Shown: in pieces, positions 15,501 through 50,579 of the stretch
How positions within the stretch are numbered: the first letter of the stretch is position 1
Layout: each line of letters opens with the position of its first letter
DNA from: Enchytraeus crypticus
Lineage: Eukaryota; Annelida; Clitellata; Enchytraeida; Enchytraeidae
Direction of reading: 5' to 3'
NCBI GenBank assembly: GCA_905160935.1
Contig: CAJHZI010000409.1
Coordinates: 124,001-188,000 of the forward strand
DNA length: 64,000 bases
Notes under the pieces: model-generated
The model's input: only the letters and a program-made list of their open reading frames with translations
Database searches by the model: none
What the model was told of the DNA's origin: nothing
Position numbers and translations under genes: made by a program

Positions 15501-16807
15501 ACTGGCTCCAGCCTATAATAAGCCTATAAAATTTCTATTTCAACAGGTCGTGGCCGTGTTCAGCTTCATCAAGTACAAGCCGGTGGAGTACGGGGGTAAG
15601 TCCTACCCGGCCTGGGCGGAGTTTCTGGGCTGGTGCATGGCCCTAGCCTCCATCCTGCCCATAGTGGGCGTGGCTGTGTATGTGCTCGTCAGGGCTAAGG
15701 GCGATACCCTGCTGCAGGTGGGACATTATAACTTGATGATCAGTCATTTTTTTGTTTTTATAGTGACATGTGATGGGGACATCCCTGACATCATCCCGGT
15801 ATGAAGAAACGGACGATTAACCTTTATTATTATTATTATTATTATTTAATGATATTATTATTGGTGACATTGCCCTAAATCCACTGCTTTTGGCTCCAGC
15901 AGCGCCCGTCCCCACTTCATCTGTTATCGATCCACCAGGACGGTGATACCCCTGAACAGGCGTTGATGAGGCAGTTGTGAGAACTCTGTTGGGAGAACCG
16001 CATTTAGAAGTCAACAGCCCTGAAATATAGACAGCTGTTCCTAGAGAATTCTGGGATCTAGTTTCCGCTTGATTAGGGCTCTGATTCGTAAAACCCGATG
16101 AGCTCTGCCTCTCCGCCTCAGCCTGCCCTGAGGCCAACATCTGGTTCAGCCCTTGACCCTGGTGCTGTGGCCCTAGTGGGAGGGACGCCTGGGACGCAGA
16201 GGCCATTCTAGCCTCGAGTATCTCCCTTTTCTCGCTGAGGGTCAGCCCAGAAAACTCTTGTGGATCTATCTCAGGCTCTATGGACGCACTCGAGGAGGAG
16301 GAGGGAGGTATTGAGAAGCCGGGACGTAGGACGCATCTCTTCTCTTTCAGACGGGCTGTGTTCAACCCGTTGACGATCACCCTCGTGCTCACGTGCTGCC
16401 TCATTGCCCGCTTGTCACCAGTCAGCACCTGAGGCTGAGGCTGCGTGGACTGAACCCCAGGTTTGATTTGAGTTTTTGGGGGCACGGGTGGGGCACCTGT
16501 TTGGATTTGGCTTTCATTTTGGGTTGGAACAGATGAAGCCACAGATTGGATGGGGCTTAGATTCTGCATAGGTGCTGAAATGGCTGGTCTAAGGTTAAAT
16601 CCGGGTAGACTGATGGAGGTGTTTTCCATGTTTCTGGTTACGTCAGGACTAACAGCGTCCACATAGTAATCCTGAATCACACCGCGGCCGTCACCTAACA
16701 CGTCAGTGCTCTCATAGTCGAGGTTCGATTGTTCACCAGTTATGTGTTCATTCAACTCTTCCAATTCAGTGTCCTGCAACTCAACGGGCCCGCTTTCCGC
16801 AACGCTA

Positions 16808-16853
<46 letters not shown>

Positions 16854-25493: not shown

Positions 25494-25534
<41 letters not shown>

Positions 25535-25626
25535 GAAGTTAGAAGATATAAAGCAGCTACCAGCAGTACCTGTGTGGTGCAAGTAACGCCTATGAGGAAC
25601 ATCACCGTGCAGACGATGATGATGAC

Positions 25627-25667
<41 letters not shown>

Positions 25668-26395
25668 CGACGACGATGATGGCGATGATGATTGTGAGTA
25701 GCAGTACCTGTGTGGTGCAAGGAACGCCTATGAGGAACATCACCGTGCAGACGACGACGACGATGACGATGATGATGATAATGATGACGATGATGATGAT
25801 GACGATGGTAATAGTGAGGTGTAATACCTGTGTGGTGCAAGGAACGCCTATGAGGAACATGACGGTGCAGACGACGCAGATGACGACGATTCTGTACTGC
25901 CACTTCCTGACGAGAATCTTCCACGTGTCCATTATTCCAGTTATCACTGTCTCCACCCCTACCATCTACAATGTACACGTCAGAACTATTCTTAATTCTA
26001 TTGTCTGTTTATACATGTATGTTTCGCTATGAAAATATAAATAAATTCAGAGCTATTATTAATTCTATTGTCTGCTTTTGTGATTCGCTATTACAAATTA
26101 TATATTTAAATATTCTTTTCATAATATTATTTTGCGTGTTGTGTCTGAGACATTGAAGAATGGACCAGCTGTTAGCAGTACTAATCGTAAGAGACAACTA
26201 AGCAATAGCTGAAAAAGGCAAAGGGAAACAACATCAGAAGAATTACTTTTTCCAAGACATTACAGGCGAAGTATTGATAAAGCTTTAACCTTCGTGAAAG
26301 AATTAATCTATTGATGTATGGAGTGCTCTTTATGGGTTTGACAGCATACTCTAAGTACGAATATGTACCTTGGACATGCCATTTGGCTGAACACA

Positions 26396-34234: not shown

Positions 34235-36673
34235 TCGATGATGATGATGATGATGATGATGATGATAATGATGACGATGATGACGATGATGATGATGATG
34301 TCGATGACGACTACGACGACGACGACGACGATGATGATGATGATGTACTGAGCCGATGGTGTGTCAGCAACTGTTGTTCTACAGCTGATCAGTAAGTGCA
34401 GGGTTCAAATTCAGCGCTCTCCCCGTCTCTGACATGCCTTCGTGCATGATACTGACTTCTACCTCGGCTTTTTACTTTAACATTTTCTGGAAATTAATTT
34501 TTAAAATTAATAATCATTAAATACTTCAAGTGAATTATCGATTCATCAGCCATGCTGTTACAAAAGCTCTTGTTGGCTCAATGTCAAACACTATGAAAGC
34601 CTATAAAGCTCTATTGTCGTTATGGCGCATCCTACAGGCGTACAGTTGGTTGTGGAGGTACGAGCCAACTTGTGCTAGAACAGGTAGCATTATTAATCAA
34701 TGCATCTGGACTAGAATACGAACTAAATAGGCCTTTGTTATAGTTTTCCTCAAGGATTGTTATTTGACATAGAATACACTACGTAACACACTCTGTAGGC
34801 CTGTGCATGCTCGTTGTATATGGTGATTATGTAAATGTGACGCCAATAAAATGTAAATGTTCTGGCTTATCGAGTTGCTGCAGCACTCAACTGAATGTCT
34901 GGATCAGAACTTCGGTGCACAGTGATTGACAAAAAAAATTTTCACTGATCCGTCATTATTTGTTAATTATTTAATAATTTTTACTTTTTGCAATTAACTA
35001 TAATAATTAATGAAATTTATTCTGTGTTTTAAACTAGAGTTTAAAATGAACGTTATCTTAGTACATCATTTTAACCATATTCCGACATTCTTCGTAATGT
35101 ACTGCTAGTTTGTGCATATTCCATTGTGCTAGTTTGTATGTAACATATATATAACATCAATGTAACATGAATGTAACATGTATGTAACATGTAAGTAACA
35201 TTGTATGTGACAGTTATATAACATGTTACTAGCATGTATATAGCATGTATGTAGCATGTATATAGCATGTATGTAGCATGTATGTAGCATGTATGTAGCA
35301 TGTATGTAGCATGTATGTAACATGTATGTAGCATGTATGTAGCATGTATGTAACATGTATATAACATGTATGTAGCATGTATGTAACATTGTATGTAACA
35401 TACAATGCATATAACATGCTACATACATGTAACATGTATATAACATGTATGTAGCATGTATGTAACATTGTATGTAACATACAATGCGCTAGTTTGGTGT
35501 AGGTGTTCACATCTATTATTGCATTGACAGGTTAACAGCAAACGCATTAATCTTTTCTGGCAAGCACCAGTACATCATCATCATCATCATCATCATCCTC
35601 CCTTGAATCCCAGTTTAACCAGGGTCGGGATACGAATAGACTGTCCCAAATCCTCTCTGTCCTACACCACACCACCAGCCAATCCCCCATTTGAGACTTT
35701 CCATTCGTTTAAATTTTTTGCAGCAAGTACAAGTATACGGATTCGAAACTCAACCGTATATTCCGTACATGTGCCTATAATGTGACGATGTCAGTGACGG
35801 GCGAGCCCAGGATTTGAACCCCGCACATACTGATCCGAAGTCGAGTATCTTACCCACGTCGCCACTAATAATTAATAATTTTAGCAACTATAATTGAACT
35901 GTGACTTGAATAAATAGCCATGTTATGAACAATGTTGCATTGGTCGATTGCATCATACTTAACATAAATGTACCGTATGCCAAAATAAACATTAGTAATA
36001 GAAATAAATGTATAGTTATCCAATAAAAGTACAACCATGCCTACCAAATGGTATTACTCAATACAAGAAGCATATTCATTATAATGGTGATAACCATTTG
36101 GCTGCAGCCAGTGGCGATGTCGGTAAGATACTCGACCGCGGATCAGTATGTGCGGGGTTCAAATCCTGGGCTCGCCCGGCACTGACATCGGTTTCTAGTG
36201 AGAAAACTGACGTTAATCTTAGCTTTTTATTAAACGACTAATAAAGTACACCGCAACAAAATTAGTTATTAATCTATAGCAGAACATCTCACAATACCTC
36301 CACCGTTCTTGTAGCATAGATACGGAAACCTCCAGATGTTCCCGAGCCCAACGGCATAGCCCAAACAAGTGAGAAGAAACTCTCTAGAGGAAGTCCACTG
36401 CATGGATCTCCTGAACCCCTGCCTGTCCATCACCATCCCCTCCCCTATCTTCACGTCTCCTGCCACCCCAGCATCCGAAGACATCTCTTCCATGTCTGCT
36501 TTACCATTTGGCAACTCCTGATCCACTAGCCCTGTGTCGTTTGAGATTTTCTCATCCACTGCATCGATGTAATTCAATGAAGATTTGTTCCTTTCCTTTC
36601 TAGATATCAACGACCTTCCATTTGGGACTTCCTCAAGACCACCAGGTTCACTTCCATTAGGAATCTTATACAT
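21011..36673 (-). CDS. SLC6-family sodium-coupled transporter, gene B (14 exons)
   Basis: Predicted 731-aa paralogue of gene A. Exons in transcript order: 36298-36673, 33764-33898, 32923-33084, 31828-31972, 30897-31035, 30041-30175, 29363-29466, 28762-28886, 26601-26713, 25828-25965, 25099-25198, 23636-23736, 22356-22526, 21011-21262. The frame joins throughout. TM1 reads [18 protein letters not shown], with Gly at the monoamine-Asp position; EL2 has [13 protein letters not shown] and NWS, NSS, NIT sequons; TM6 reads [14 protein letters not shown]. It shares the ion-site changes of A: Ala376 (chloride Ser), Ser408 (Na1 Asn) and Gly476 (Na2 Asp). Exon 14 starts KLKNSTT, matching KLKNATT of A, then diverges into an acidic tail (SEEEDDD) without the NGTG repeats. 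The ATG at 36673 lies behind an in-frame CAG|GCT acceptor, so a further 5' exon is possible. Substrate unknown. Confidence 0.93.
21285..21510 (-). repeat. SINE-4 (tRNA-derived) copy, intron 13 of gene B
   Basis: Read in reverse it has an A box (AGCGCAGGGGTAACG) and a B box (GGTTCGAATCC), then the shared block near CCAGTCCAGTGAATGTCC. A second copy in the same orientation is at 61715-61930. Confidence 0.75.
21715..21910 (+). repeat. Dispersed repeat with (GA)n tail
   Basis: GGCAGGCCGAGATTAGG ... ATACCATGGACCTGCCAGTAGG then (GA)20. Reversed relatives occur at 39650-39790 and 51940-52105. Confidence 0.65.
22150..22335. repeat. (AATT)n/(AATC)n simple repeat, intron 13 of gene B
   Basis: AATTAATTAATT followed by CAATCAATCAAT variants up to the exon 13 donor. 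Confidence 0.8.
22581..22725 (+). repeat. SINE-1 copy, intron 12 of gene B
   Basis: Complete: GCTGGAGCCAGTGGCGAAG, GGGTTCAAATCCTGGG, CGCTTTCGAGTGAGG, ATTAGCTTTACCAGC. Confidence 0.85.
22900..23120. repeat. (TA)n followed by dispersed element
   Basis: TA run at 22902-22957, then GGATTTTGGAATTTGCACCG ... GACTGTAGCACTG, the element also seen at 14330. Confidence 0.7.
23425..23565 (-). repeat. SINE-1 copy, reversed, intron 12 of gene B
   Basis: GCTAAGGTAAAACTAATG ... GATTTGAACTCCGC ... CGCCACTGGCTTGAGCC; nearly full length. Confidence 0.8.
23925..24665. repeat. ~23-bp minisatellite, about 30 copies, intron 11 of gene B
   Basis: Unit ATTTAATTACATCCACTGTT + AGAT with variants (CATCCGCTG, CATGCACTT). 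Higher-order groups of units repeat. Open frames on both strands are artefacts of this array. Confidence 0.92.
25200..25495. repeat. ~19-bp minisatellite, intron 10 of gene B
   Basis: Units like CTAACAGTATAACACAATA run from the exon 11 acceptor outward. A (GA)n run (25498-25530) follows. Confidence 0.85.
25570..25827 (-). repeat. Two extra copies of the exon 10 tail and donor (gene B)
   Basis: The last ~14 codons of exon 10 ([15 protein letters not shown]) plus the GT donor recur downstream with donor edges at 25708 and 25570. The copies are separated by (ATC)n-type microsatellite. Spacings of 120 and 138 nt are multiples of three and the frame stays open. Use of the later donors would add 40 or 86 residues, mostly Ile/Val. 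Third-copy change: VTCTTQ. Confidence 0.85.
26130..26425 (+). repeat. SINE-3 copy with (GA)n tail, intron 9 of gene B
   Basis: GACATTGAAGAATGGACCAG ... GGAGTGCTCTTTATGG ... TATGTACCTTGGACATGCC, then GAACACAAGAGAGAGAG. Confidence 0.75.
26714..28761. other. Intron 8 of gene B
   Basis: Holds a reversed piece of the 14330-type element at 27050-27130. Bases 27600-27880 have open frames on both strands that I cannot assign to any family. No exon of gene B is missing here by phase. The rest is AT-rich and unremarkable. Confidence 0.45.
28990..29085. repeat. (TTAATTTAA)n simple repeat
   Basis: Low-complexity TTTAATTTAATT run in intron 7 of gene B. Confidence 0.7.
29165..29287 (-). repeat. SINE-1 copy, reversed, intron 7 of gene B
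   Basis: TGTTAACGTCAGTTTCCTCA ... GATTTGAACACGGC ... CGCCACTGGCTCCAG. Confidence 0.8.
29690..29950. repeat. SINE-3 fragments, both orientations, intron 6 of gene B
   Basis: A reversed 3' piece lies near 29695-29750. A forward 3' half at 29785-29950 (GGAGTGCTCTTATAGG, TATGTACCTTGAATCTGCC) ends in (GA)n. Confidence 0.6.
30176..30500 (-). repeat. Minisatellite carrying copies of the exon 6 acceptor (gene B intron 5)
   Basis: About seven ~43-bp units. On the minus strand each reads ATTCTATACACTGTTGTATT + GATGTGTAG|GTGTATT. The true exon 6 junction is TTGATGTGTAG|GTATCA, so each unit preserves the polypyrimidine/AG context. Confidence 0.82.
30825..30885. repeat. (GA)n microsatellite beside exon 5 of gene B
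   Basis: GAGAGAGAGA run just downstream (transcript sense) of the exon 5 donor. Confidence 0.85.
31560..31690 (+). repeat. SINE-1 copy, intron 4 of gene B
   Basis: GTTAAGATATTCGACCGCGG ... CTCCCGTCACTGACATCGC ... GATGTTAACATTAGC; the B box is mutated. Confidence 0.75.
32385..32655 (+). repeat. SINE-3 copy, intron 3 of gene B
   Basis: GTCCGGAACACCGAAGAAT ... ACACGTGTGATAGGACGCGAC ... CCACCTCAGAAGTCAT ... GAACACAAGAGAGAG. A (GA)n stretch at 32130-32200 lies nearby. Confidence 0.78.
33218..33272. repeat. (CT)n microsatellite
   Basis: About 27 CT units in intron 2 of gene B, followed by a reversed piece of the 21715-type repeat (GGTCCAGGGTATATAACGCC). Confidence 0.85.
33956..34350. repeat. (TA)n and (GAT)n microsatellites, intron 1 of gene B
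   Basis: TA run at 33956-34017 and a GAT/GAC array at 34132-34345. Its poly-Asp and poly-Met frames are artefacts. A diverged SINE-1 piece (GCAGGGTTCAAATTC) follows at 34385-34480. Confidence 0.88.
35110..35490. repeat. 11-bp minisatellite, intron 1 of gene B
   Basis: More than 25 units of ATGTATGTAGC/ATGTATGTAAC, with a short inverted block near 35395-35420 (GTAACATACAATGC). Confidence 0.88.
35787..35866 (-). repeat. SINE-1 tRNA-like half, reversed
   Basis: GATGTCAGTGACGGGCGAGC ... GATTTGAACCCCGC ... GTCGCCACT. Confidence 0.75.
36100..36232 (+). repeat. SINE-1 copy near exon 1 of gene B
   Basis: GGCTGCAGCCAGTGGCGATG, GGGTTCAAATCCTGGG, GACGTTAATCTTAGC; close to consensus. Confidence 0.83.
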
Positions 36674-39033
36674 CCTGTCGAAAGGTATAGCCTGAAAGGT
36701 ATACAGTAAAATTAATCTCTTAGTTTAGATAAGAAACTTTTAGTACTACAGTTATTCCAGAAGCTCCTCAGCAATATCAACTCTAATAAGAAGTTCTACC
36801 CTTAGATGTTTATTAATAAAAGACTTCTTTCTAAAATCCCGAGATCAGGCGATGCTAATCGAAACAAAGCCGTACATGCGCCGTATGGAAGGCTTATTTT
36901 GGGAGTAGAAGCGAATGCGCGCATTCTTAGAACCCTACATGCCCCGCCCGTGACTTACTACTCTCTATCCATTCTCTAGGCTATAAAAACCAAGGCGAGT
37001 CTTTCCAGGGATTTTGTTATTTAGGATTTAAACGACCTTGAAACAGTTATATTCTACCGGAAGGTAGTAAACCGCTTCGAGCATACAGCTCTCACTGTTA
37101 TGTTTTAGGAATTGCCAATACGGCTTGCTCCATGTATTGTCCTCTATTATATCTCCTCTAGGAAATGTAATTTTTTTTTGTTATTTTGAACTTTTATTTA
37201 ACTTTATTTAATTTTTATTATTTTGTATTTTAACTTCAAGCTGCCAAATTTAGTTATAAATAGGCAGGGGTATGTTTATCAGATAGGTTTCTATACTAAG
37301 AGATGGCTAATATATCATTTCACCCATCAATTAAATGAATTTTTGATAAATTGTATATAAGTAGTTTATTGATCGATAGAGTATTGATGGCTGCTTCAGA
37401 TGATTGTTGCTGCAAAACTATAACTTTTATCGTAATATTTCTGATTAATTAGTAATTATTTATTTAATTAACTAAGTTGTTTATTAATTAACATAGTTAA
37501 TTAATATAATTAATTAACTATGATTATTTAATTAAGCTATACCAAGTCTCCATTAGAAGAATGATAATTAAATTTCTCAAATTATGTAAAAATATGTATC
37601 ATTATACTGCTACGGCTATCAGCAAATCTTCCAGCGATATATTGATGGAAATGAGTAATAATCTAAAATAGATTATGATTGACTAGAATAGATTATGAGT
37701 AATTATGATTGACTAATTTATTTAATCCATAGATCGAATTTCTGTTCATTTGCGGCTTAACTTTAATACAATACTACCTACTTCATAACACATATCAAGA
37801 CGTAAATTATGTAAATAAATAACTAAGACAGCGTAATAATGTACTGTGTCGACGCTACATTTCCGTACAATAAGCTTATTGAAATCCCGCACTCAATAGC
37901 CTACATTTTTGTCCAAATGTTGACAAATAATTACTGTCGTATTTCTACGATTATACTGAAAGAGCGCCCACACAAATAATGTGGAATTCGGGTAGATGTC
38001 AAATAAATGAAGAGCACTATAGACCTATTGTAGGTATACGGGTAGCTCAGTGAATAACTGGAAGATTATATTCGCTGGTCAAAACTGAATATTTCAACCA
38101 GATTTAGTGTCTGATATTAAATTCGAGGGCGATGTCCATGGCAACAAACAAGTCTAAACGATACAGAAACACTGAATACATAGAAAAATTTAAATAAAGG
38201 GCGCAATGTTTCAGTTCCTGCCCCACTTTACCGCATCAACGACTTAGCGGTAAACCAGCGATAGTAAAATGCTGGTAGAGTGGAAATTTACAGCGACGTG
38301 AGTCATGGAAATATATGAACAAATATATGAACGTAGAGACTCTGCAGCGTTACGAGAGAGTAGCTATATATAACCACTCAGTTGTCAGTGTCACGTGACC
38401 ATTGCTTCAGGATAAAGACGGCATATTATGGAAATTTCATTGTCTGATTTATATAACCACTATTATTTTGGTTATGATTCACCCAAGACTGAAATTGTAT
38501 TATTCTAATGGCATGCCAGTAATAGGTCTAACGCAGACCTATTTGATCGCATGATCATACTAGGCTCGTGTGACTGTGTGGCTCGTTAGACAGTGTGACT
38601 CGTGAGACAGTGTGGCTCGTGAAACAATGAACCTAATGCGACTGATGCTCGTGAGACTGTGAGCCAGTGTCATGTTGAGTTATGATCAGCGGAGTAGCCA
38701 GCATATAATCTTTGGGGAGGCACTTTTTTAGGAAATTTTGAGCACGGTCAACTATTTCTCTAGTAAGCAATCGTATAATATCGATATAGGCCTATAGATT
38801 AACAATAGGTATAATAACCACGCCTACTGCTTATTTTAGGGTCACTATATACATGTATATCATATGGCTTAATCCCGATCAACTACCCTGTTTATTAGCA
38901 ATTTTACATTCGCTGAATGCGCTAAAAAAACTATAAACTAAGAGCTTACCTAAATCAATAGTTCACAGTTCTGTAACTCTTAGCAATGTAACCGAATCAC
39001 CAGAAGAGCATTAGCCTACAGAGTCAAGTTTAC
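36674..39033. other. Intergenic or 5' region of gene B
   Basis: No further exon is certain. A GC-richer patch (36840-37010) carries GGCTATAAAAACC at about 36978. 37430-37560 is TTAATTAA-rich. 38560-38660 has short GTGTGGCTCGTGA-type repeats. Confidence 0.35.
36978..36990 (+). promoter_or_regulatory. Possible TATA box (plus strand)
   Basis: CTATAAAAACC stands in a locally GC-richer stretch of single-copy-looking DNA, but no plus-strand gene is seen for 4.7 kb. It could be a promoter, a solo LTR or chance. Confidence 0.2.
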
Positions 39034-39639: not shown

Positions 39640-41756
39640 TGATATTTAGTGGCAGGTCCATGGTATATAACTTCCTCAACATACTTCTGTCCTCCGCCTC
39701 TTCCTTCATATCAACATACGAATTTTAGTTATCAAATCATCCAGCATCCCAAGTCTCGGTCTTCTTCTCAGTGTCGCCCATATAGGCCTACGACTAAAAT
39801 GATGGGGATGCGAAAATATGTTTGAGCTGTTTGAACATCTAGGTTTTTCAGACCCACTTATTCCACTAATGGAGGGGTATTGAAAATCAGTAATCCATCT
39901 CGGATAGATATAGTCCCTACAATACGAGAAATATATTTATTCCGCTATGGGTCTTTATCCTCGCAATGAAAAACATTAGTTAAAACTTATTAATCCAAGC
40001 TAATATATGCTAGTAAAGTGAGCACGCTTACTTTCAGACAAATTGGGCCTAACCTTTTTCCTACTGATTAATGATTTTACTAACTAATGACTTAGCCTAT
40101 ATCTTCAATAATAAGGTATAAACTTACATAATCTTATGCTTACATTATACATCAATTGTTATTCTGATTGCTTGAATTAGGCCCTATACTTAAGCGCATT
40201 AATTATAGACCAAACGATTTAAGCGTTACTAGCTAAACAACCTATAGTATGCTAATGTTATTCTAATAAAAGATAGTTCATATTTTTACCGACATAACTC
40301 TGTAACTGAAAAAATCAGACTGAATGCAGATTTACGCGGCAATGCATACAACTACATATAGCCTACATCCCTGGCCTCTTTGTCTTGTGCCTCGCTACAG
40401 TCCGTTGAACAGAGGCTGAATCTAGACTAATTACACGACATTAAGATAAGGGATTCAACTGAATGACAGGATTGACGGTTAGGGCAGGGACTATCTGACG
40501 TCAGATTGATTGACATCTGATTTGAATTGAATACTTGTTGGACATTTGGATTTACACTGTATTATTTTTTCTTAAATCTGTCAGCATGAAATAGTGTTAG
40601 CATGTTTCCTTATCAGGACACAATCTGCTGTCTCTGAGAAAGTGAAGCTGTGTCTTAGATCTTCGAACTCACATGTTTGCTTCCGTATTTCTTCTTTGCT
40701 GTTATTATAAACAAATATATAATCTCATTAGATATTTTTGCTCGCTGACGCTCATTTCTCTTTAGAACAATGTATAACAGTCACACAGTCATTTTGTGTA
40801 GTTGTTGGTGGCGGCGAAGACTGAATGAGAGGAGGAGCGGAGAGGAAGGAAGGGAGGTGGGGGAGGTTGAAAGTATGCCAATTTACAGTATTGAAGTAAA
40901 AAATAAATTATTGCGTATTCCCCCTTCCCCCCTCGCTACGCCACTGGTTATGATAAATATAGGGCCTTCAGGAAAAATTAAAATGAAATAAGAATAAAAA
41001 TACAGGAGAAAATACAGAAATTATAAATTATAAAGTGTTCCTTAAGTTGGCATTTATATTGGCAATTACCCGTAGAAGCTGATGATTACATACGGCTGTA
41101 AAGCATTTTACCATTTCCTATCTTCTAATAAGAAAGAAACCCAGTGAAAACGATTATTTTGTACTTTTAAGATCCAACTGCTAAGATGGACAATATAAAA
41201 ACAGCATATGTGTGTCAACAAATTGCGTCCGGCCTTCACCTTATAGTGTCTATTTACTTATTTCCTATTGGCTAAATCGTTCAACCTTGACAATGAATCG
41301 TCACACTTTTACGAGGAATTTCCATCGAGTGTAAAGAATTTGCCAATACTTAGATTAAAAATATCAAAAGGGAGATCAAACTTAGAGAATTACATACAGA
41401 CATTTTCAGTCAGACAGTTGTTTATACACGAATACATGAAATAGTTATCCCACTAAACTAGTATACCGTCAAGTTAGAGCCAGAGTGTCAGTGAATGCTT
41501 TTAGTAATTAATTATATAAATTTTGGAAGAAAATTACATTGAAAATTGCTACGATATGCATGTACGAAATATCTAAATTTAAATATCTTTATGAAGGAGA
41601 TTTAGTTTTTTTCATAGAGTGGTATGTTATGATGAGGAATGAAATTGTGACTAGACTGATGTTACAAATCCAGTTTCATATCTAAGTGAACCTGTATAAT
41701 CGCACTGTTTAAATGGCAACCGTGTTTATACATCCGGGTGTGAGCTTGTTCTTGAT
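39640..41756. other. Intergenic, upstream of the snoRNA host gene
   Basis: 39650-39790 is a reversed dispersed repeat (GGCAGGTCCATGGTATATAAC). From 39800 to 41756 I see no exon, RNA or repeat. The host-gene promoter should lie at the right end. Confidence 0.4.
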
Positions 41757-41765
41757 CTCTCTTTC
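41757..41765 (+). promoter_or_regulatory. 5'TOP-like transcription start of host gene
   Basis: C followed by eight pyrimidines (CTCTCTTTC), then an exon-length stretch ending in GTGAGT. The start is inferred from sequence only. Confidence 0.45.
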
Positions 41766-42583
41766 ATTTACTCGTGGAAGCTGAGCCGTGGTGAAAGTCA
41801 GAGATGAAATTCTCATTTCCGAATCGTCTGGTCCTTTAATCCTCATCGCCTAATTATAAGTGAGTAACAATACCTAAGTAGTTGTATAGAAGGTAAATTT
41901 GAAAATAGCAAGTGAAACTAGAGTGCGATGCTTAGTATTTTTGGCATACATTTGTAAACACGTTTTTTGTTAAAATTGGCAAAATTCGCCAGCTTCTATG
42001 CATCTTTTAATTGTGGTAGTTTTCTAATCGTAAATTGAGTTATTTAATCGAGGTGGTATTAATAAATGTTTGAGAGATATTAATTGTTCGTAGGGTGTAG
42101 AGGATCGTGTATAAATTTTGAAAACGAAACAATGCGTGTTTTTAGACCACATGTGTTTGTATGACGACGAAATGAAAAAGTGCATCATATTATTGCATTG
42201 TTTTCCGGCAATTTCGTCGGATTCAACCAGTAAATGCGACAATCCTAGGTTACAATTTTATAATAGAACTAGGCATTTTTGAAAGACAAAATTTTATTGG
42301 ATATTTCAGAATGCACATTTACCAATTTTTTTGCAGATTGAGATGTTAGTTGTACCTCTTGCAGCCATTGTCACGACATCTATGAATATATTTAAATCTT
42401 CAGTCCAACTTAAATAGTCAAACTGATCTTTTATTCATAAAACTCTGTTACACAATTTAGTGTTTTTGCTGTCTATGAAATGAGACAGTAATATAAAATT
42501 ACCGATCTCAGATTGTTATTATAACTCATTAGTAAAGGTAATACATTTCAAAGTAAATTGTTAAATATGTATTTTAATTGTAC

Positions 42584-42659
42584 CTGAGCCAGGTGATGTA
42601 ATTATTTATTTGCATGTATTATCATATATACCTTGATGACCACAGTACTGATGGCTCAG
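42584..42659 (+). ncRNA. SNORD45: C/D box snoRNA, SNORD45-like copy 1
   Basis: The terminal stem CTGAGCCA/TGGCTCAG (8 bp, perfect) closes a C box (GTGATGT, 42593) and a D box (CTGA, 42648). Internal TTGCATGTATTA complements 18S UAAUACAUGC (human U172 region), the known SNORD45 target. Upstream of D, GACCACAGTA complements 18S ACUGUGGU (near human A159), also a SNORD45 target. The dual specificity supports the name. The D' box is degenerate. Confidence 0.8.
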
Positions 42660-43484
42660 ACGTTTATCCAATCTGATGCAGAATTACGATGTACTTGAAT
42701 CTAGTTATGTTCACCAAAGTCTTTAACGAGGACAGTTTCTTTTCTATTAACCCTACTTTACTCGACACATATATGCTTTAATCACAGATACTCTGGCAGG
42801 ATTGAGTCCCTCAAAATTCCACAAATTTTATTAACTAAGTTAAAAATATATTGATATTGTTTCTAAAGCTTGACTAGATTAGTTGCAATATAATTTTAAA
42901 AAATTAAAAATCAATAATGTTCAGGGTGACTACTCTTCTGGAAAAGTCAGGGAAATGGAAAAAGTCAGGGAAAATAGAATTTTGGCATTCTTAACATTTT
43001 TAGTATGAAAAGTTCAAACCCTTAAGATGCCAATCGTTGGCAAAATTGCATAGGAAGCAGTCATTAAACCTTTAGTATAGGCTATTTGTTTGTAATGGGT
43101 AGCATGCTGATACTTGCCTAATTTTATACACTATAGATCTATCAGTGTAAAATGAAATAGCAAAGTGCACATTGTTTAGAAATCATTTCTGACATTGATT
43201 TCCAACATAAAAATCGATGCTGCGATGGTAACGAAATGTCGAAGCACACTGGAAAAGTCAGGGAATTTGTTGTGGTCGGGAGAGTGGTTACTCTGAATGT
43301 TGAGTAGTAAACTTTAAAAGGTAGATCAACTTTTCAGTTATAGCGTTGAATTATAAGATCCATTTATTCCTGTGTGATCAATTCAAAAGTAATGAATTAC
43401 TTTCAGGGTGAGCATATCAGATACTGATTGGGTCTTAATCTACAATTAACTGTAGTATAAATAAGAAGCAATTAATTTAAAATG

Positions 43485-43563
43485 GTGGTTCAGTGATGAT
43501 TTAGTAAAAGACAAGCATATGTCTGACAAAATTAATGTGGACAACTCTAAACTGATGAACCAC
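43485..43563 (+). ncRNA. SNORD27: C/D box snoRNA, SNORD27-like copy 1
   Basis: Stem GTGGTTCA/TGAACCAC, C box GTGATGA (43493), D box CTGA (43552), internal D' CTGA (43523). The 14-nt guide AGACAAGCATATGT directly before D' complements the 18S stretch AUAUGCUUGUCU near its 5' end. It is the SNORD27 guide (human A27 2'-O-methylation). Confidence 0.92.
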
Positions 43564-43872
43564 TTTTTGATAAACACTTTTTTGTGGTTTTTTTAATTAA
43601 AACTAATTAATTAGTTTTAATTTATTTTATATATTTAGACAACTGATATTGAAATTTAATTGTAGACAAATGTGCACAAACATCTGTAACCAAAAAGAAT
43701 TCACGATTAAAATTTATCAGCTTGTCAGTTTTCTAGTCTCTTGTAATTCCTTTTAAAGTGTTTTGGTATCATTTATTAATTATTGACAAAGATATATTCA
43801 ATAGACTGTATAATTTATTGACAAATGACAAATTATATAATTGACTAGCTGGGCTATGGGCTATTGACTTTA

Positions 43873-43952
43873 GTTATGCCAGGTGATGATTTATAATTAT
43901 TTGCATGTATTATCATACTAATCTGTGATGAGAAATTTCCTGATGGCATAAC
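43873..43952 (+). ncRNA. SNORD45: C/D box snoRNA, SNORD45-like copy 2
   Basis: Stem GTTATGCCA/TGGCATAAC (9 bp), C box GTGATGA (43883), D box CTGA (43940). It keeps the ATTTGCATGTATTATCAT segment of copy 1, but its sequence before D (GAGAAATTTC) no longer matches the A159 region, so it probably kept only the U172 guide. Confidence 0.8.
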
Positions 43953-44998
43953 AGAAATATTTCATTTATTGGGGTTAAAAAATTCCTATATTCGTAATTT
44001 TAATTATAGAGATTTTTATTTCGTATTTCGATTATATAATGTGATATAGTACCATTTATGTTTCTAAAAGTTGTTTTGATTCAAGTAATGTTGGTTGTTG
44101 ACTTTTAAAAGAGCTGTCTTTTGTTAAATTGCAGCTGATTCAATTTCCTATGCATTAGACTAAAATCGGCCTGTAATTGTGTAAGGAAGTTGTAATTATA
44201 GCCACTTAATGCTTCAAATTGCTTAGCTGAATGTTATCTAATTTGTTAGGTACTGTATAATAGTTCTGGTTAGAAAAACTTGTGACTGCAGTTTAATTTA
44301 GTTTTTAATTAGGTTTTTACTGAATTGCAAATTGCAGTATATTAATTATTTCACTAATTTATTTTTTGCACATGATTTGCTATGATGAAATTCTATTTTT
44401 GAAAACCCATGATATTCACCATATATCCTCTAAGAAGTACTGAGCAAATCTACAGAGCTATTCTTATTTAGATCCGCTAGTTTTTGTGTCTTATTGATGC
44501 TTTGTTTCTAGTACTTTTCTCTGGTTTTTTGTGCTAAAATTTAGTTAATTCTAAATTCTTAGGGGCTTGACTGGCTATTTGATGAAAAAATTAACTTGAA
44601 ATTTGAAAATTAATACTGCCACATTGTAAGGGTTATGTATTACGCACAGTAATATGGCTGATCTATAATTGCTAACATAATGCTCATCCATAATTATAGC
44701 CATCACTCTTATGCTACATGTTTGAATTGTAAAATCTAGTGAATGTACTAGATTTTATTTAGATGTCTCAAACATTGGCTCTACCAGGCCCAATCTGATG
44801 GAGCTATTAACAGTATTTTATACATCTTGAAACTGAATAGTTCTTACAAAATATATTTATAAATACTATATGCTGCAGTTTGGTAGGAGGATTTGCCTCT
44901 AACAATTATTTTTATTTTCTATTTAATATGGTTTTGTTTTAAGGTTATGTTTGTTAAATCTACCTATATTTATACTTTATACATAAAGTTAAATGGAA

Positions 44999-45142
44999 GC
45001 ACTGATCGCAGGTATAGCTGCTGAATCAATCAGCTAGCTGACTTGACTGCTAGAACAGGCAGTGCAAGACTATGTTCTCCTGATTGCAACTCATACTGTC
45101 CAGTTGTTCTCTTGTAGACAAGAACGGCAGTATGTTACAATA
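44999..45142 (+). ncRNA. H/ACA box snoRNA candidate 1
   Basis: Hairpin 1 is closed by GCACTG/CAGTGC (44999/45060) with inner stem TAGCTG/CAGCTA. H box AGACTA is at 45067. Hairpin 2 is closed by CATACTG/CAGTATG (45092/45128) with inner stem GTTCT.TTGT/ACAAGAAC. ACA lies at 45137 exactly three nt before the proposed end. This matches the hairpin-hinge-hairpin-tail rule. The pseudouridylation target is not identified. Confidence 0.72.
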
Positions 45143-45506
45143 TCTGGAGTACATTCCACCAGATTCAACCCTGTTTTAATTATAGTTAAACTTCTACTGG
45201 TTACAAGAAAAATGTGTCTTTAGATTTCCTTCAAATGGTTGAACTACATTTTTTTGCTGTTGTTGTTAGTTAGAAAGTCTTCTATTTTTGTCGAATCCAT
45301 CATTAGCGATTTATAATGTACATAGTACATGCACTTAGCTAGCTATATTTGCTGTACATATACTATGCTATATTCTGTGTTTTGAAGTGTAAAAATCTGT
45401 GTACCATAGGGTCAATGTATTTATGTTGCATAGGAGTTGACAATAAATGAAAACCTTGCAATGATATTACAAATGAAGGTTATGAGAGGAGTAGAGCTCT
45501 TTTGCA

Positions 45507-45643
45507 AGTTTACAGTGATGAAGCTATTTTAGCGCCTAGGGGGCAGCCGCTAAGGCGCTGGAGCCAGAAATGGCTGAACCCACCAGGGCTGGTTTGTCTT
45601 CCTGTGGGCGATAACACGCCCTTATGGGCTGTCTGAGTAAACT
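45507..45643 (+). ncRNA. Long C/D-type RNA candidate with structured interior
   Basis: Stem AGTTTAC/GTAAACT (7 bp), C box GTGATGA (45515), D box CTGA (45633), 137 nt. The interior is GC-rich and folds locally (GCGCC/GGCGC; GGGCG/CGCCC), unlike simple guides. It could be a U3/U8/U22-type processing RNA or an scaRNA. I found no rRNA or snRNA match from memory. Confidence 0.55.
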
Positions 45644-45907
45644 GGACAAGATTCAGTTTTATAAATTTACAGTACTATTAATTTGAAAATTGTTTCAGTT
45701 AATATGCACCAATAAACAATTATATCAGTAATTGATACTGTACATTATTTTTCTGGCTTTGATTTTAATTATGCTGACATAGTAAACGTTTTCTCAGAAT
45801 TACTAAGCAATATTAGTAAATCAAATATCATTAGTTTTTTGTTCTGAAATGCTGAAAGGCTATGCAGCGCTAATACATCACCCTATAGCTTTTCAGGGAT
45901 TTAGTTG

Positions 45908-46017
45908 TGTTTTTTCGGAACTATTGCTGTTGGTGCATTTGCTGAAAAAAGATGATAACCGCTGTAACATCAGGGAAGCTGATAATAGTCAGAGTAATTG
46001 CAGCGCTAAGAACATTT
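45908..46017 (+). ncRNA. H/ACA box snoRNA candidate 2
   Basis: Hairpin TTTTTTCGG/CTGAAAAAA (45910/45942), hinge AGATGA, hairpin CGCTGTAA/TTGCAGCG (45960/45998) with inner CTGA/TCAG, and ACA at 46012 three nt before the proposed end. A further hairpin (CTGAAAGGCTAT / ATAGCTTTTCAG) lies just upstream at 45850-45892. Target unknown. Confidence 0.6.
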
Positions 46018-46771
46018 TTAGCTGTGTGGTGTCTGAAATTAGTATTGGTACCTAGAATGCAATTTTGTATGAAGATTTTATAATACTGACTAGATTAATA
46101 GGATTTGTGCTCTCTTGATATTGCTGCAGTGGCTTAAGTTCCTGTTTCATGTAGGGCGTTAGTTTTTAAAGTATATTTCTAATTAATATTTTATTCTGTT
46201 GCAAGCTATATTCAATCACAGTGTTTCCTGTTACAAATGTTTCTGTATTGTATATCTACAGATTCCAAGATGAATTATTTTGAGAGAATCCAGAGGGTCT
46301 AAGGAAGTCACTTCACACAGCTTTCGTCTGTATATCCTTTATTTTATCATTCCTTGTAGTTTTGCGTAATATTCTGATATGCGGTGTTTGTGAACTAAAT
46401 GTTAGTGATATTTTTAATATTAAGTTAGTAATTTTTATTACTATGTAATATTGATTTTAATTTTTAAATGGAATGTGGTCCTGACAGGTTTGGCAAATCT
46501 ATTATTTTTACTAAACTGCCTCTATTAGTAATTAGTTATATTTAAAAAAGTGTGTCTGCATATACTTTTGCAACAACTACTTTCACTGTGTTCTTTGATT
46601 TAATAATAAATATGTTTGGTAAATGTTAGTCTTAAAGCATTTAGATATAATTATACTTATTAGTTATTAATTAATTTTTTTTGTCTTCTGAAGTTGCATC
46701 TGTTCAATTAAATTGAAATTAATTTATTTAAGCCATTTCATTAAATTAGTTTATAAACTATTTCAATTGCT

Positions 46772-46870
46772 TTGCACAACAGTTCATCTATGATGATTTA
46801 TCAATAGACAAGCATATGTCTGAACAACTGTGTTGAAGCCATACAAATCTGATCAGAAACTGTTGTGCAA
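46772..46870 (+). ncRNA. SNORD27: C/D box snoRNA, SNORD27-like copy 2
   Basis: Extended 13-bp perfect stem TTGCACAACAGTT/AACTGTTGTGCAA, C box ATGATGA (46790), guide AGACAAGCATATGT before D' CTGA (46820), D box CTGA (46849). Same 18S target as copy 1. The boundaries include the extended stem, so the mature RNA is probably shorter. Confidence 0.92.
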
Positions 46871-47107
46871 AACTTAGTATACATTTTTGCTGTGTTTAAA
46901 TATTTCCAAAATAATTTGTTAAAAAAATAATTTCATTAATAAATTAAAGAGTAACAATTCTTGTAAGCAATACTTTAACCTATATGTAGTCTATCTGTGA
47001 TGCTGTAAATGATACAGACATATGTTCCTACGGGTATTTGTTATGACTCGGCATTAGTTGTATGGAAATGTTTTAAATATGCTTCGCTTCGGGTCTCTTT
47101 AGTTACG

Positions 47108-47187
47108 GGTTCTTAATGATGATGTTTAAATAGACAAGCATATGTCTGAATTACTGTGTTTGACACCATCCATATCTGACAAGAATC
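47108..47187 (+). ncRNA. SNORD27: C/D box snoRNA, SNORD27-like copy 3
   Basis: Stem GGTTCTT/AAGAATC (one G-U), C box ATGATGA (47116), the same 14-nt guide before D' CTGA (47146), D box CTGA (47176). Its 3' half resembles copy 2 (ACTGTGTTTGACACCAT versus ACTGTGTTGAAGCCAT), so copies 2 and 3 are a recent local duplication. Confidence 0.92.
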
Positions 47188-47293
47188 TTGTAGCAAGTAT
47201 TTAAAATATATATATATATATATACATATATATTGCCCTTATAAAGAATTTTTATTATTTGTACCAATTATAATATTCTTTGTATGTTTTGAA

Positions 47294-47463
47294 TTATTGT
47301 TTTTTTGCTTTTTATATTTTATTAATTGCTAGCATTTGTTAAAAGAAATATCCTTTTAGTATCATGTACTCTATTAAAAATAGCAATGGTAATGATACTA
47401 AAAGGATATTTCTTTTAACAAATGCTAGCAATTAATAAAATATAAAAAGCAAAAAAACAATAA
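47294..47463. repeat. Perfect 71-bp-arm inverted repeat in the host gene
   Basis: Arms at 47294-47364 and 47393-47463 are exact complements around a 28-nt spacer. Part of the spacer (GTACTCTATTAAAA) is itself inverted just outside the right arm (TTTTAATAGAGTAC, about 47470), a nested layout expected from template switching. Confidence 0.92.
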
Positions 47464-47909
47464 CATCATTTTAATAGAGTACGAGAACATATATGAGCAA
47501 GGAGAAGGAGGAAAAATAGACCCTAAATCTAACAATAACCTTAATCATTCCTCCTAACCTTAACCCTAACACAAACTCTCTAAAAAGCATATTTGGTTTT
47601 AATTTACATTTAATTTAAAAAAAACTGTTAATAATTTCAAACTGTCTCCACATATCTTTAGTTTTTCCATCTACATGCTCCGGTTTGCCTGCTCATTTGT
47701 GTTCTTGCTCAAAATTAGTTATTTTTACATTTCAGAAATGTAATGATTATATATCTGGACAACTGTTTTCTTATCCAGAATGAATTAAAAATTCTAAGTT
47801 AGATTATTTTTGTGTTTAAAAGATGTTTTTTTGAAATTCTTTAACGGCTGCCTGACTTGTAATTATTGGTAAAGCGTTACCATTGCTAGGGATTATGGCT
47901 TCACATAAT

Positions 47910-47989
47910 GGGTTGCAGATATGATGAGCATTTTATTTTTATTGAATATAATGATAGATTATATATTAGCTCTAACTGATCTGCAGCCC
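47910..47989 (+). ncRNA. SNORD44: C/D box snoRNA, SNORD44-like
   Basis: 11-bp stem GGGTTGCAGAT/ATCTGCAGCCC (one G-U), C box ATGATGA (47921), D box CTGA (47976). The guide TATTAGCTCTAA before D complements 18S UAGAGCUAAUA, the SNORD44 site (human A166). The ATTAGCTCTAACTGA end is as I recall it in human SNORD44. Confidence 0.88.
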
Positions 47990-48089
47990 TGGGTGTAATT
48001 TAGTTGTTTTTCTCTACTCATTTTAATCGTCGCCTATTTGCTATAATGCTACACAATGTATTTATGTATTTGACAAGGCTATGTAATGC

Positions 48090-48320
48090 TCTTTTGCTAT
48101 GTAATGTATTTATGTATTGGTGCTTGTCCGTGTACCTCTTGGTATGTTGTCGATCTGAGTTCTAAAAATTGGTTGCAAATTTCCTACAGGGAGTTGACTA
48201 ATTCTGATGTTCAGTCGTCATCACGTGATGTTTTGCTTCTTTTGATGCAGCGTCTGTTTGAGACGTCCTTTACATTGCCTTGTGGTGAGGAACTGGACCT
48301 TAACATTATTGCTTGATTAA
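48090..48320 (+). repeat. SINE-2 copy
   Basis: Aligns by eye with 17290-17515 and ends GAGGAACTGGACCTTAAC. The short open frame across it is incidental. Confidence 0.6.
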
Positions 48321-48508
48321 TACTGATATGATGAAGCTGATGTTTGAATAAGCTCTTAGAATTGTCTTTATCTATTCACTGTATTTTGTAAGAATATCTC
48401 CATGAGAGTAGTACTCTAAAAAAATTTATTCACCTTGAAATTTATTAAGCTCAACATTTTTTATTCACATTGAAATTATTAAATTTCAACTGTTTCTTTA
48501 GTAAGTTT

Positions 48509-48587
48509 GATTGCAGACATGATGATTATTAAAATTATTTCACTTGCACTGAATACCATGATATAAAATTGGCTCTGATCTGCAATC
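48509..48587 (+). ncRNA. C/D box snoRNA, target unassigned
   Basis: Perfect 9-bp stem GATTGCAGA/TCTGCAATC, C box ATGATGA (48519), D' CTGA (48549), D box CTGA (48575). Candidate guides are TATTTCACTTGCA (before D') and ATATAAAATTGGCT (before D). I could not match either to an rRNA or snRNA site from memory. Confidence 0.82.
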
Positions 48588-49793
48588 TCATTTACAGTAA
48601 GGCATTTTTTTAAAGAAAAATTTGATTACATGTAGCTATGACGATTGTAATATTAGTAAACTGAATTTCTAGCTACACAATGATGAGCAAGTTGTATTTG
48701 CATTAATTGTAATTCAACAACATGAATTCATCCATGCCCTTGTTTTTATCCAATACCCACATAGACAAACTTTTATTTTAACTTTAAGTTATACTGTTTA
48801 AATAAGCTTGTTCGTTTTTAACTGCAAACTTTTAATATGTTTTTATGTGAAGGGTCCTCGTGAGTGCCTTGTGCCTGAGGTATACCTCGATTCTGCACAT
48901 CTTATTTTGCTCGATATCTGTATATGATGCGATGCTCTGTTGTGCAAAGTGAGGGATTAAATGAAATAAGTAAAATAAAATATATGAGGTGTCGAAGACT
49001 GCTTTGTCATGTTCCTCCATCTGTTGGCAGCACGGATATAATTATGTTATCTCGCACCATGTCTGTAGAGCCGGTACTAACTATGGTTATTAGCATTGCA
49101 TTCAGTGTAGTGAAGAGCTAATGGTACTAACTATGTTATGAGGGCATTTGCTCTAATTCTCTGTGTTATTATTTACTGATGACTTGTTATTGTAATTACT
49201 GAAGTCATTTTATGTTATCTTAGTCACAAAGACACATGATTGTTGTTAAAGAAATCGAATGATTAAAACTGGAATTGAATTTTATGCTGTTGTTTTGGTG
49301 CTTCATATGCTATTCAGCTGCCATGTACATTTTTTAATACAAGATACTGCATGTATTAACTTTGGACAAAAGAATAATTTTAGAAGTCTGGCTTTATATA
49401 TACATTTATTTGCCTCCCTTATCATACCTAGGAGAACCCTATCGATCATCACTTCGCTACCATAAGTGTGTAATAAAGCTCTACTCTTACCGTCTCCATT
49501 TGTTTCTTGCGAAAGATAGAATTATCCTAATGGATATTAAGTATTCTGCAGGCTAAGGGATAGATACTTTATTAGCAAATTCACCATGACATATGCACAG
49601 TATTACAAGCGCTTGCGCTGAATGCCGCAAAACAATCTCAGATACGAGGAATACATTTCAGAAGCTTTAAAAATAAGACCATTTATCTACATTGAAATCC
49701 CTGGTAATTGCAGGTGCACCAACAAAGCGTAGAATTGTAGAATCAGAGAATATTTAACGTCTGTTTCCTCTCAGCGGATATCCGCTAAGATAT

Positions 49794-49839
49794 ACTTGGA
49801 AACATACTTAGCAGATATCCGCTAAGTATGTTTCCAAGT
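49794..49839. repeat. Palindrome with neighbouring third copy of the core
   Basis: ACTTGGAAACATACTTAGC and its complement surround AGATATCC; AGCGGATATCCGCT, a related palindrome, lies 20 nt upstream (49773-49786). A reversed SINE-2 end (TTTAACGTCTGTTTCC) is adjacent. Confidence 0.8.
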
Positions 49840-50579
49840 TTATGATATATCTTCATTTTCTTGCGTGATGCTTTAACAAGATAACAACTTGTCCTAAGAA
49901 CGCAGAAATTAATCTCGTAAAAACAAACAGATCTAATACATGACACCATTCACAGTGACATGACAAATTATCAGAAATTCTTAATTATTCGTTAATAAGC
50001 ATGACAGTAGGCAATGGTCACTATATAATAGGCATGAGTGATTGCAGTATGTAAATAAATAAATAAGAAAATAAATAAAAGTACCGCACGTGTAAAATCA
50101 AAGTAGGCATATGCTTCATTTCATTAAATCCAAGTATACTACACTTCATTGATCAAAGCTTTATCAAAGTGTTACCTGTGTCTGTGTTGTTTACAGTGTT
50201 TCTCACCGTATTATAAAACCCACATGTTGTGCTTAATAAACCAAGCTAAAATCCAACTAAAGCTGAATTTTTGCCTCTGTAGCATGACAGGTATAGGACA
50301 ACACGGGGATTTGAACCTCACTCTCCGAAACAGCCAGAAAATTGAACGAACATTCTACGGCCTCAGCCCAAATCTCATATTAAGATTAATGTAACTTAAT
50401 TATCCAAACCATTGGCGCTTTAGATTGGCGCTTCTAGGAATAGAATTGCAGACAAATCATCGATATTGTGCTCTAGGCATAAAGATGCGTTCAGTTAAGC
50501 TTTGATCTTTTAAATCAGCAAAAAGTATCGAGGTTACAAGATTTAAAAAGTCAATAATTCTTAAACTATAGTGTTCTGC

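Follow-up and report, generated by a model that had tools for sequence, protein, structure and literature searches.

The window, the whole 64,000-nucleotide stretch of Enchytraeus crypticus DNA that was analysed, contains nine box C/D RNAs, all on the + strand between 42.58 and 48.59 kb (Table 1). By their boxes and terminal stems these loci are box C/D snoRNAs, and each is predicted to yield a stable RNA bound by the core proteins. There is good reason to regard them as a dedicated animal snoRNA cluster, most likely carried by one non-coding host of the Uhg/GAS5 kind that would run on the + strand from about 41.76 to about 49.1-49.5 kb. We infer that the cluster is expressed as a shared transcript, with the nine RNAs released, probably from host introns, and bound by C/D core proteins. 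Seven of them would direct fibrillarin to 18S A27, A166, U172 and what we take to be U1442 (human numbers), where methylation would follow. The guides for the 5' domain would have multiplied by duplication within the gene, giving three SNORD27, two SNORD45C and probably two SNORD44-type copies, one of the last pair having since lost its guide. Such a locus offers a checkable case, beyond vertebrates and flies, of guides for neighbouring rRNA sites gathering and multiplying in one place.

Table 1 Features of the cluster (positions in the window; targets in 18S by human number and in the genome's own 18S; WC, Watson-Crick pairs with the own 18S)
Feature	Position	Strand	Type and structure	Guide and predicted target	WC
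Possible 5'TOP start of host transcript	41757..41765	+	CTCTCTTTC; sequence only		
RNA1	42584..42659	+	SNORD45C-type	D' guide TTGCATGTATTA, U172 (own U167)	12
RNA2	43484..43564	+	SNORD27-type	D' guide, A27 (own A28)	13
RNA3	43873..43952	+	SNORD45C-type, RNA1 paralogue; 9-bp terminal stem	U172 (own U167)	12
RNA4	44374..44450	+	SNORD61	D guide, U1442 (own U1413)	12
RNA5	45507..45643	+	Long C/D RNA, candidate U22/SNORD22; 7-bp terminal stem		
RNA6	46771..46871	+	SNORD27-type; 14-bp outer stem set back 5 nt each side	A27 (own A28)	13
RNA7	47108..47188	+	SNORD27-type, RNA6 paralogue	A27 (own A28)	13
RNA8	47910..47989	+	SNORD44-type	D guide, A166 (own A161)	11
Short candidate exon of the host (RNA8-RNA9 interval)	48251..48284	+	Inferred from splice scores		
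RNA9	48509..48587	+	C/D RNA; 9-bp terminal stem	Orphan, without A166 guide	

Box C/D RNAs on one strand

Scanning for boxes plus a terminal stem with a strict C box found seven structures on the + strand of positions 41400-49900, none on the - strand and one elsewhere in the window; at a tighter stem cut the strict scan gave none in the window outside this interval. The corresponding means for shuffled sequence were 0.035 and, at the tighter cut, 0.01. A relaxed C box combined with a higher stem cut again gave seven on the + strand of the interval, none on the - strand and one elsewhere, with a shuffle mean of 0.005. Each scan recovers seven of the nine RNAs; RNA1 was recovered by the relaxed scan alone, and RNA7 by the strict scans but not the relaxed one. 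RNA6 is absent from all three and was picked up through its match to the SNORD27 model. The C box, D box and terminal stem are present in eight RNAs by scan, and in RNA6 by sequence and fold (z -3.0). RNA1, for example, has an 8-bp terminal stem, a C box GTGATGT and a D box CTGA, and RNA5, whose C and D boxes lie 122 nt apart, folds at z -2.68.

An earlier note on this DNA had described six C/D RNAs with terminal stems and guides for three parts of the 18S 5' end, and these were recovered with guides for A27 (RNA2, RNA6, RNA7), U172 (RNA1, RNA3) and A166 (RNA8). Where it had two further C/D candidates, three were found: RNA4, a SNORD61, together with RNA5 and RNA9. The two H/ACA RNAs that it also placed here could not be substantiated. 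The H/ACA scan returned three candidates on the + strand of the locus and one on the - strand, no enrichment over the one to nine in each of ten background stretches, and three stretches picked by us (the claim gave no coordinates) fold at z -1.17, 0.24 and 0.21, which is no fold signal. A mir-3910 match (44.2 bits, cut-off 95) was due to a perfect hairpin and was discarded.

Guides, targets and family identity

The earlier note had named failure of the guides to match this species' own 18S as a refutation. All seven match, pairing through 11 to 13 uninterrupted base pairs, and the predicted methylated base is the fifth nucleotide from the box. Could such features be chance look-alikes in AT-rich sequence? 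Comparable duplex scores do occur elsewhere in the window: by score alone among its 608 CTGA sites, the SNORD27 guides rank 3 to 5, the SNORD61 guide ranks 8, and the RNA8 guide lies outside the best 20. Against this stand the seven structures on one strand where 0.005-0.035 were expected, the Rfam matches, with SNORD61 above its cut-off, and the shuffled guides, of which none in 20000 equalled the real one at its target base for any of the seven. Chance is already excluded for the whole set, and its probability as an explanation is negligible.

The own 18S copy contains N stretches and appears error-prone past its 5' part; that it is endogenous is supported by pseudogene pieces with the same peculiarities. 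An intact own 28S was not found, and the orphan arms, including those of RNA9, showed no convincing target in the own 18S or the available rRNA pieces. Three pairings were set aside: the upstream arm of RNA8 with position 778 of the own 18S (13.1 points), which overlaps the C box of RNA8; the D' arm of RNA9 with a microsporidian LSU (12.8 points); and the upstream arm of RNA4 with that same LSU (16.6 points), which precedes ATGA, a poor D' box. The rRNA patterns had no match in the viral collection searched.

Judged by the guide, by the arm that carries it and by its predicted target in the genome's own 18S, the assignments to SNORD27, SNORD44 and SNORD45C types stand. RNA4 is a SNORD61, scoring 47.8 bits with RF00270 (SNORD61, cut-off 43) and having the D guide for U1442. 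Searching with the family models, as the earlier note had proposed, bore out its naming in part: SNORD27 was matched, although below the cut-off, and the SNORD44 and SNORD45 models gave no match above theirs. In the case of SNORD27 (RF00086, cut-off 52 bits), RNA2 scores 43.8 bits (E 2.5e-5), RNA6 35.6 (E 0.0027) and RNA7 46.0 (E 7.4e-6), all below the cut-off; the three, each with a D' guide, are labelled SNORD27-type by guide. RNA8 has no SNORD44 match above the cut-off. The 52 Rfam matches listed include none to SNORD45, and the plant snoR122 model reached 27.2 and 30.1 bits (cut-off 36) in the SNORD45 test; RNA1 and RNA3 are likewise labelled SNORD45C-type by guide. The A159 guide claimed earlier, a feature of SNORD45A/B, was not found in a search of the guide arms against the own 18S; the 3' arm of RNA1 pairs best at position 148, and that of RNA3 has no match above the reporting limit.

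Within the searches made, the 524-Mb assembly contains no further C/D RNA with a SNORD27, U172 or A166 guide. RNA2, RNA6 and RNA7 are the top three of 65 genome candidates scored with the SNORD27 model; of seven further places listed, five weaker SNORD27-like ones have broken guides or no C box, as judged by eye. The exact U172 guide word occurs at two places in the genome, both in the cluster. Allowing up to two mismatches gives 228 places, against 112 for the reversed control, and ten one-mismatch places among the 226 outside the cluster have no C/D structure; nor have seven places elsewhere that show the A166 guide pattern. Since the genome's only C/D RNAs of these three types, by these searches, are found here, a single locus may control methylation of the 18S patch around A27, A166 and U172.

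The putative host transcript

A common non-coding host for the nine RNAs, with putative splicing, start and end, is likely because they lie on the same strand, there is no long open frame and the sequence has a strand skew. The longest stop-to-stop frame in the locus has 82 codons, and a protein-coding host was rejected for want of a long one. Pfam was run on ten open frames, none from the locus; four matched SLC6, one of these below the Pfam cut-off. T exceeds A and G exceeds C in every kilobase of 42-49 kb, and both skews are reversed past 50 kb. The possible 5'TOP tract at 41757 is not exceptional, being within one of 13 pyrimidine runs of at least 9 in 38-50 kb.

Alternatively, there may be no spliced host gene: each RNA could be a gene of its own, or all could come from a polycistron that an endonuclease cleaves, as in plants and yeast. 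The + strand of the locus has two 5' splice sites scoring at least 5 and seven scoring at least 3, fewer than the 3.0 and 14.2 expected from the window's first 41 kb, and the C-box spacing of 326-1275 nt is compatible with either reading. Low splice scores say little, however, because in the adjoining SLC6 genes putative exon ends are also low on the same generic matrix (4.6 and 0.3). One fair exon candidate does exist, at 48251-48284, where 34 nt separate a 3' splice site scoring 5.4 from a 5' splice site scoring 5.5. The skew is continuous across the cluster, and introns are reported to hold 95% of the snoRNAs expressed in fly S2 cells (PMC13228274). Separate genes or a polycistron are improbable, and a single, probably spliced host is the reading we retain.

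Duplicated copies and known snoRNA hosts

RNA1 and RNA3 share 79% identity over 71 nt, and RNA6 and RNA7 share 82% over 73 nt. In both pairs identity ends within the RNA boundaries; because alignment spans the RNA and not the flanks, this suggests long-standing duplicates held by selection. RNA9 has stem and boxes in common with RNA8 and an 8-nt gap in the guide, and blastn between the two gave no match at E 0.01; it is probably a diverged SNORD44-type copy that lost the A166 guide. It could be argued that RNA9, and perhaps also RNA1, RNA3 or RNA6, is a duplicate in decay that no longer functions. RNA9 lacks both the guide and a convincing target, the D' box of RNA1 and RNA3 has degenerated to CATA (in RNA1 located by means of the guide), and the stem of RNA6 is displaced. 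All nine RNAs nevertheless keep intact boxes and stems while the flanks of RNA1/RNA3 and RNA6/RNA7 have ceased to align, and decay, even of some copies, is rather unlikely.

Hosts of several snoRNAs with redundant guides are already known (Drosophila Uhg1, GAS5, SNHG1), and the cluster assembles familiar parts in a new combination. U27 copies occur in Drosophila Uhg1, and GAS5 also contains SNORD47 and SNORD74-81. These other GAS5 RNAs have only weak matches in the cluster, for instance SNORD81 at RNA9 (30.4 bits, cut-off 50) and SNORD79 at RNA2 (24.6 bits, cut-off 47). Like the cluster, Uhg1 is a dedicated host with many redundant guide copies; its 16 snoRNAs are reported as the only ones targeting five rRNA positions (PMC4430873). 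GAS5 is alike in being a non-coding host with SNORD44 and duplication within the gene, and its chicken counterpart has been termed a hotspot of snoRNA expansion (PMC2653536). That these families have separate hosts in vertebrates, as previously stated, is confirmed in print: in chicken the gas5-like gene carries U44, RABGGTB carries U45A/C and RBMX carries U61 (PMC2653536), and human SNORD27 lies in SNHG1 with SNORD22 (PMC7154078). The guide arms agree with those described for chicken, namely the 5' arm of U45 for U171 (RNA1, RNA3), the 3' arm of U61, in RBMX intron 2 (RNA4), and the D arm of U44 (RNA8). In chicken U45A/C, A158 is guided as well, from the 3' arm (PMC2653536; U171 and A158 in chicken numbering), a guide that RNA1 and RNA3 lack. 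RABGGTB and RBMX are protein-coding, whereas no coding exon was found in the cluster. In titles and abstract openings of the open-licence literature, we found no described host combining SNORD27, SNORD44 and SNORD45.

The cluster could also be the counterpart of vertebrate SNHG1/UHG, with U22 kept beside U27 and guides gained and lost since. SNORD22 and SNORD27 are both in human SNHG1 (PMC7154078), and the likeness of RNA5 to SNORD22 extends to length, register and a 32-nt core; 14 and 20 shuffles in 20000 equalled its interior match, which scores 38 against 37 for the next place in the window. RNA5 is still a weak candidate for U22, at 20.1 bits with RF00099 (cut-off 50). On this model six of 43 scored genome places do better (21.6-25.6 bits). 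An unrelated family reaches 19.6 bits at RNA5. Of four places inspected, the best also aligns better outside the boxes (43 against 38), with no CTGA in the stretch inspected, and the other three align worse than RNA5. Among the matches listed, SNORD25, 26, 28, 30 and 31 are absent and SNORD29 is matched weakly (24.1 bits at RNA4, cut-off 48); the cluster, unlike SNHG1, adds SNORD44, 45C and 61 types. Counterpart status is unlikely, and slightly more doubtful still is the fuller claim of an invertebrate SNHG1/UHG that has kept U22 adjacent to U27 since the ancestor of both animal lineages, with exchange of the guides around them. If true, it would mean that a non-coding host has held a pair of snoRNAs together over deep time, contrary to the view that mobility erases such pairings.

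Two origins were proposed earlier, an ancestral cluster later dispersed and a lineage-specific collection; the published conclusion that snoRNAs remain mobile (PMC3511168) would favour the second. The one available lead toward an ancestral cluster is the possible adjacency of U22 and U27, which SNHG1 also has; were RNA5 a genuine U22, it would provide a route to test the antiquity of the SNHG1 content.

Nine C/D RNAs and their family names

A strict scan for C/D RNAs required a terminal stem besides a C box (RTGATGA) and a D box (CTGA). It gave seven matches on the + strand of 41400-49900 and zero on the - strand of that interval; elsewhere in the window there was one, or none at a tighter stem cut. 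Dinucleotide shuffles (200) gave at most one match each, with means of 0.035 and 0.01. Relaxing the C box while raising the stem cut again gave seven, with RNA1 gained and RNA7 lost (RNA1 to RNA9 being numbered left to right); outside this interval the window again had one match, and the mean over shuffles was 0.005. RNA6, with a 14-bp stem set back 5 nt, was recovered through its SNORD27 match, and the locus total is nine. The six C/D RNAs claimed in an earlier note are borne out by boxes, stems and guides matching this genome's own 18S; for further ones its count of two falls short by one, as three were found. Its A159 guide and two H/ACA RNAs are unsupported. On sequence grounds, the cluster can be taken as real and its RNAs as functional-looking.

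RNA4 exceeds the Rfam cut-off for SNORD61. RNA7, RNA2 and RNA6 score 46.0, 43.8 and 35.6 bits against SNORD27, all below the cut-off of 52, and rank top among 65 scored candidates (of 169,869 first-look candidates) in a genome-wide search; the next has 29.9 bits and a broken guide. Among the Rfam matches listed for the locus there is none to the SNORD44 or SNORD45 models, so the names SNORD44-type (RNA8) and SNORD45C-type (RNA1 and RNA3) rest on guide, arm and target.

Pairing with the genome's own 18S

The genome's own 18S was located on contig C97. A 3-Mb contig, C609, holds two copies of the 18S 5' end, both degenerate and spaced by some 400 nt (2413-3048 of stretch L031). These pseudogene pieces are 94% and 85% identical to the C97 copy, versus 90% and 75% to the next reference, and have its peculiarities, which supports an endogenous origin. 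However, the C97 18S consists of N in part, and on inspection by eye its later portion seems rich in errors; in addition, pieces on contigs C118 and C90 are nearer to other references than to the C97 copy. Six of the seven guides target its cleaner 5' part; the RNA4 target falls outside it.

Each guide forms 11-13 uninterrupted Watson-Crick pairs with the own 18S, and for each of the seven none of 20000 shuffled guides equals the real one at its base. RNA1 and RNA3 have a degenerate D' box (CATA), which was located from the guide itself. Duplex scores alone are not rare: of the 608 CTGA sites that the window holds, the SNORD27 guides take ranks 3-5 and the SNORD61 guide rank 8, and the RNA8 guide is outside the best 20 listed. 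The decisive evidence is the combination of duplexes with boxes and stems.

Guide targets in the own 18S (base at +5), with human equivalents
RNA	Own 18S	Human 18S
RNA2, RNA6, RNA7	A28	A27
RNA1, RNA3	U167	U172
RNA8	A161	A166
RNA4	U1413	U1442

The human positions are what we take to be the equivalents, partly from the usual human numbering. The correspondence also uses a chicken table (PMC2653536), where U45 targets U171 through its 5' arm, and U44 and U61 target A165 and U1397 through their 3' arms. For these three the locus RNAs use the vertebrate arm (D' or D), which favours descent over convergence. Arabidopsis A28 has also been attributed to U27 (PMC8053127).

A separate rRNA unit, of microsporidian type (SSU 1192.5 bits, LSU 1620.6 bits, 5S), lies at 4239-8619 of the stretch 66500-76400 (L064) of the 312-kb contig C252; the sequenced animal may have carried a microsporidian.

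Duplication, precedents and RNA5

RNA1 and RNA3 are 79% identical over 71 nt, RNA6 and RNA7 82% over 73 nt, and both alignments stop inside the RNA ends; RNA2 has just 33 nt in common with RNA6 and RNA7. Conservation of duplicated RNAs within diverged flanks suggests selection. RNA8 and RNA9 have stem and boxes in common, with an 8-nt gap in RNA9 at the expected A166 guide; the case for their kinship is weaker, as blastn at E 0.01 left them unpaired. Genome-wide, the exact U172 guide word occurs at two places, both at the locus. Up to two mismatches give 228 places; besides the locus pair, the ten with a single mismatch were inspected, and none has C/D structure. The A166 guide pattern occurs at eight places, RNA8 being the sole C/D RNA among them. 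These counts cover these wordings, and differently worded guides may exist.

Drosophila Uhg1 carries 16 snoRNAs, with five rRNA positions targeted by these alone (PMC4430873); a chicken gas5-like gene has been termed an expansion hotspot, duplication inside genes being the main route (PMC2653536); and a survey of 44 eukaryote genomes describes ancestral snoRNA gene organisation as erased by mobility (PMC3511168). Given these precedents, we regard the architecture and guide redundancy as of a known kind. SNORD27, 44, 45C and 61 together in one locus were not found in the open-licence literature, judged on titles and abstract beginnings.

RNA5, with 122 nt from C box to D box, has a fold z of -2.68 (4 of 200 shuffles equally good) and reaches 20.1 bits against the SNORD22 model (cut-off 50). 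Boxes left out, its 32-nt core scores 38 against SNORD22, a value that 14 and 20 of 20000 shuffles also attain. Within the window this is the top place, with the runner-up at 37. Elsewhere in the genome six places exceed RNA5 on the model (21.6-25.6 bits). Four were inspected: the best beats RNA5 outside the boxes (43 vs 38) and has no CTGA within the stretch examined, and the other three align worse than RNA5. That RNA5 is U22 seems rather unlikely, yet it is worth keeping as a lead, which matters because human SNHG1 carries SNORD22 together with SNORD27 (PMC7154078).

Host gene and neighbourhood

A shared host is favoured by all nine C/D RNAs lying on one strand, by a T>A and G>C skew in every kilobase of 42-49 kb that flips beyond 50 kb, and by one candidate short exon; a longest stop-to-stop frame of 82 codons favours a non-coding host. 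Against a host, 5' splice sites fall below the expectation from the first 41 kb (2 vs 3.0 at score 5; 7 vs 14.2 at score 3). This shortage says little either way, since with the same generic matrix the putative exon ends of the SLC6 genes nearby score low too (4.6 and 0.3). The TOP-like tract at 41757 belongs to one of 13 pyrimidine runs of at least 9 nt in 38-50 kb, which counts against a special start; snoRNA hosts commonly initiate at a C within a pyrimidine tract (PMC6954239).

The window belongs to contig C318 of a 524-Mb assembly. Pfam searches of ten open frames matched SLC6 transporters in four, all left of the locus: 845-1303 (+), 15334-15801 (+), 25447-25965 (-, below the Pfam cut-off) and 36272-36724 (-). 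These exons probably belong to two genes in opposite orientations, the nearer of which seems to start at about 36.7 kb and head away from the snoRNA locus. Taken with the 18S, the SLC6 matches indicate the nuclear genome of an animal; the 18S may be lophotrochozoan. A 330-codon open frame at 15820-16809 (-) adjoins an SLC6 last exon and has no Pfam match. Between RNA7 and RNA8, at 47294-47463, two perfectly complementary 72-nt arms flank a 26-nt loop. This inverted repeat is probably a fold-back element of recent origin, and it gives a mir-3910 match below cut-off on the - strand. Just beyond the cluster, 49770-49843 holds nested palindromes with 27-nt arms, 93% complementary and without a spacer.
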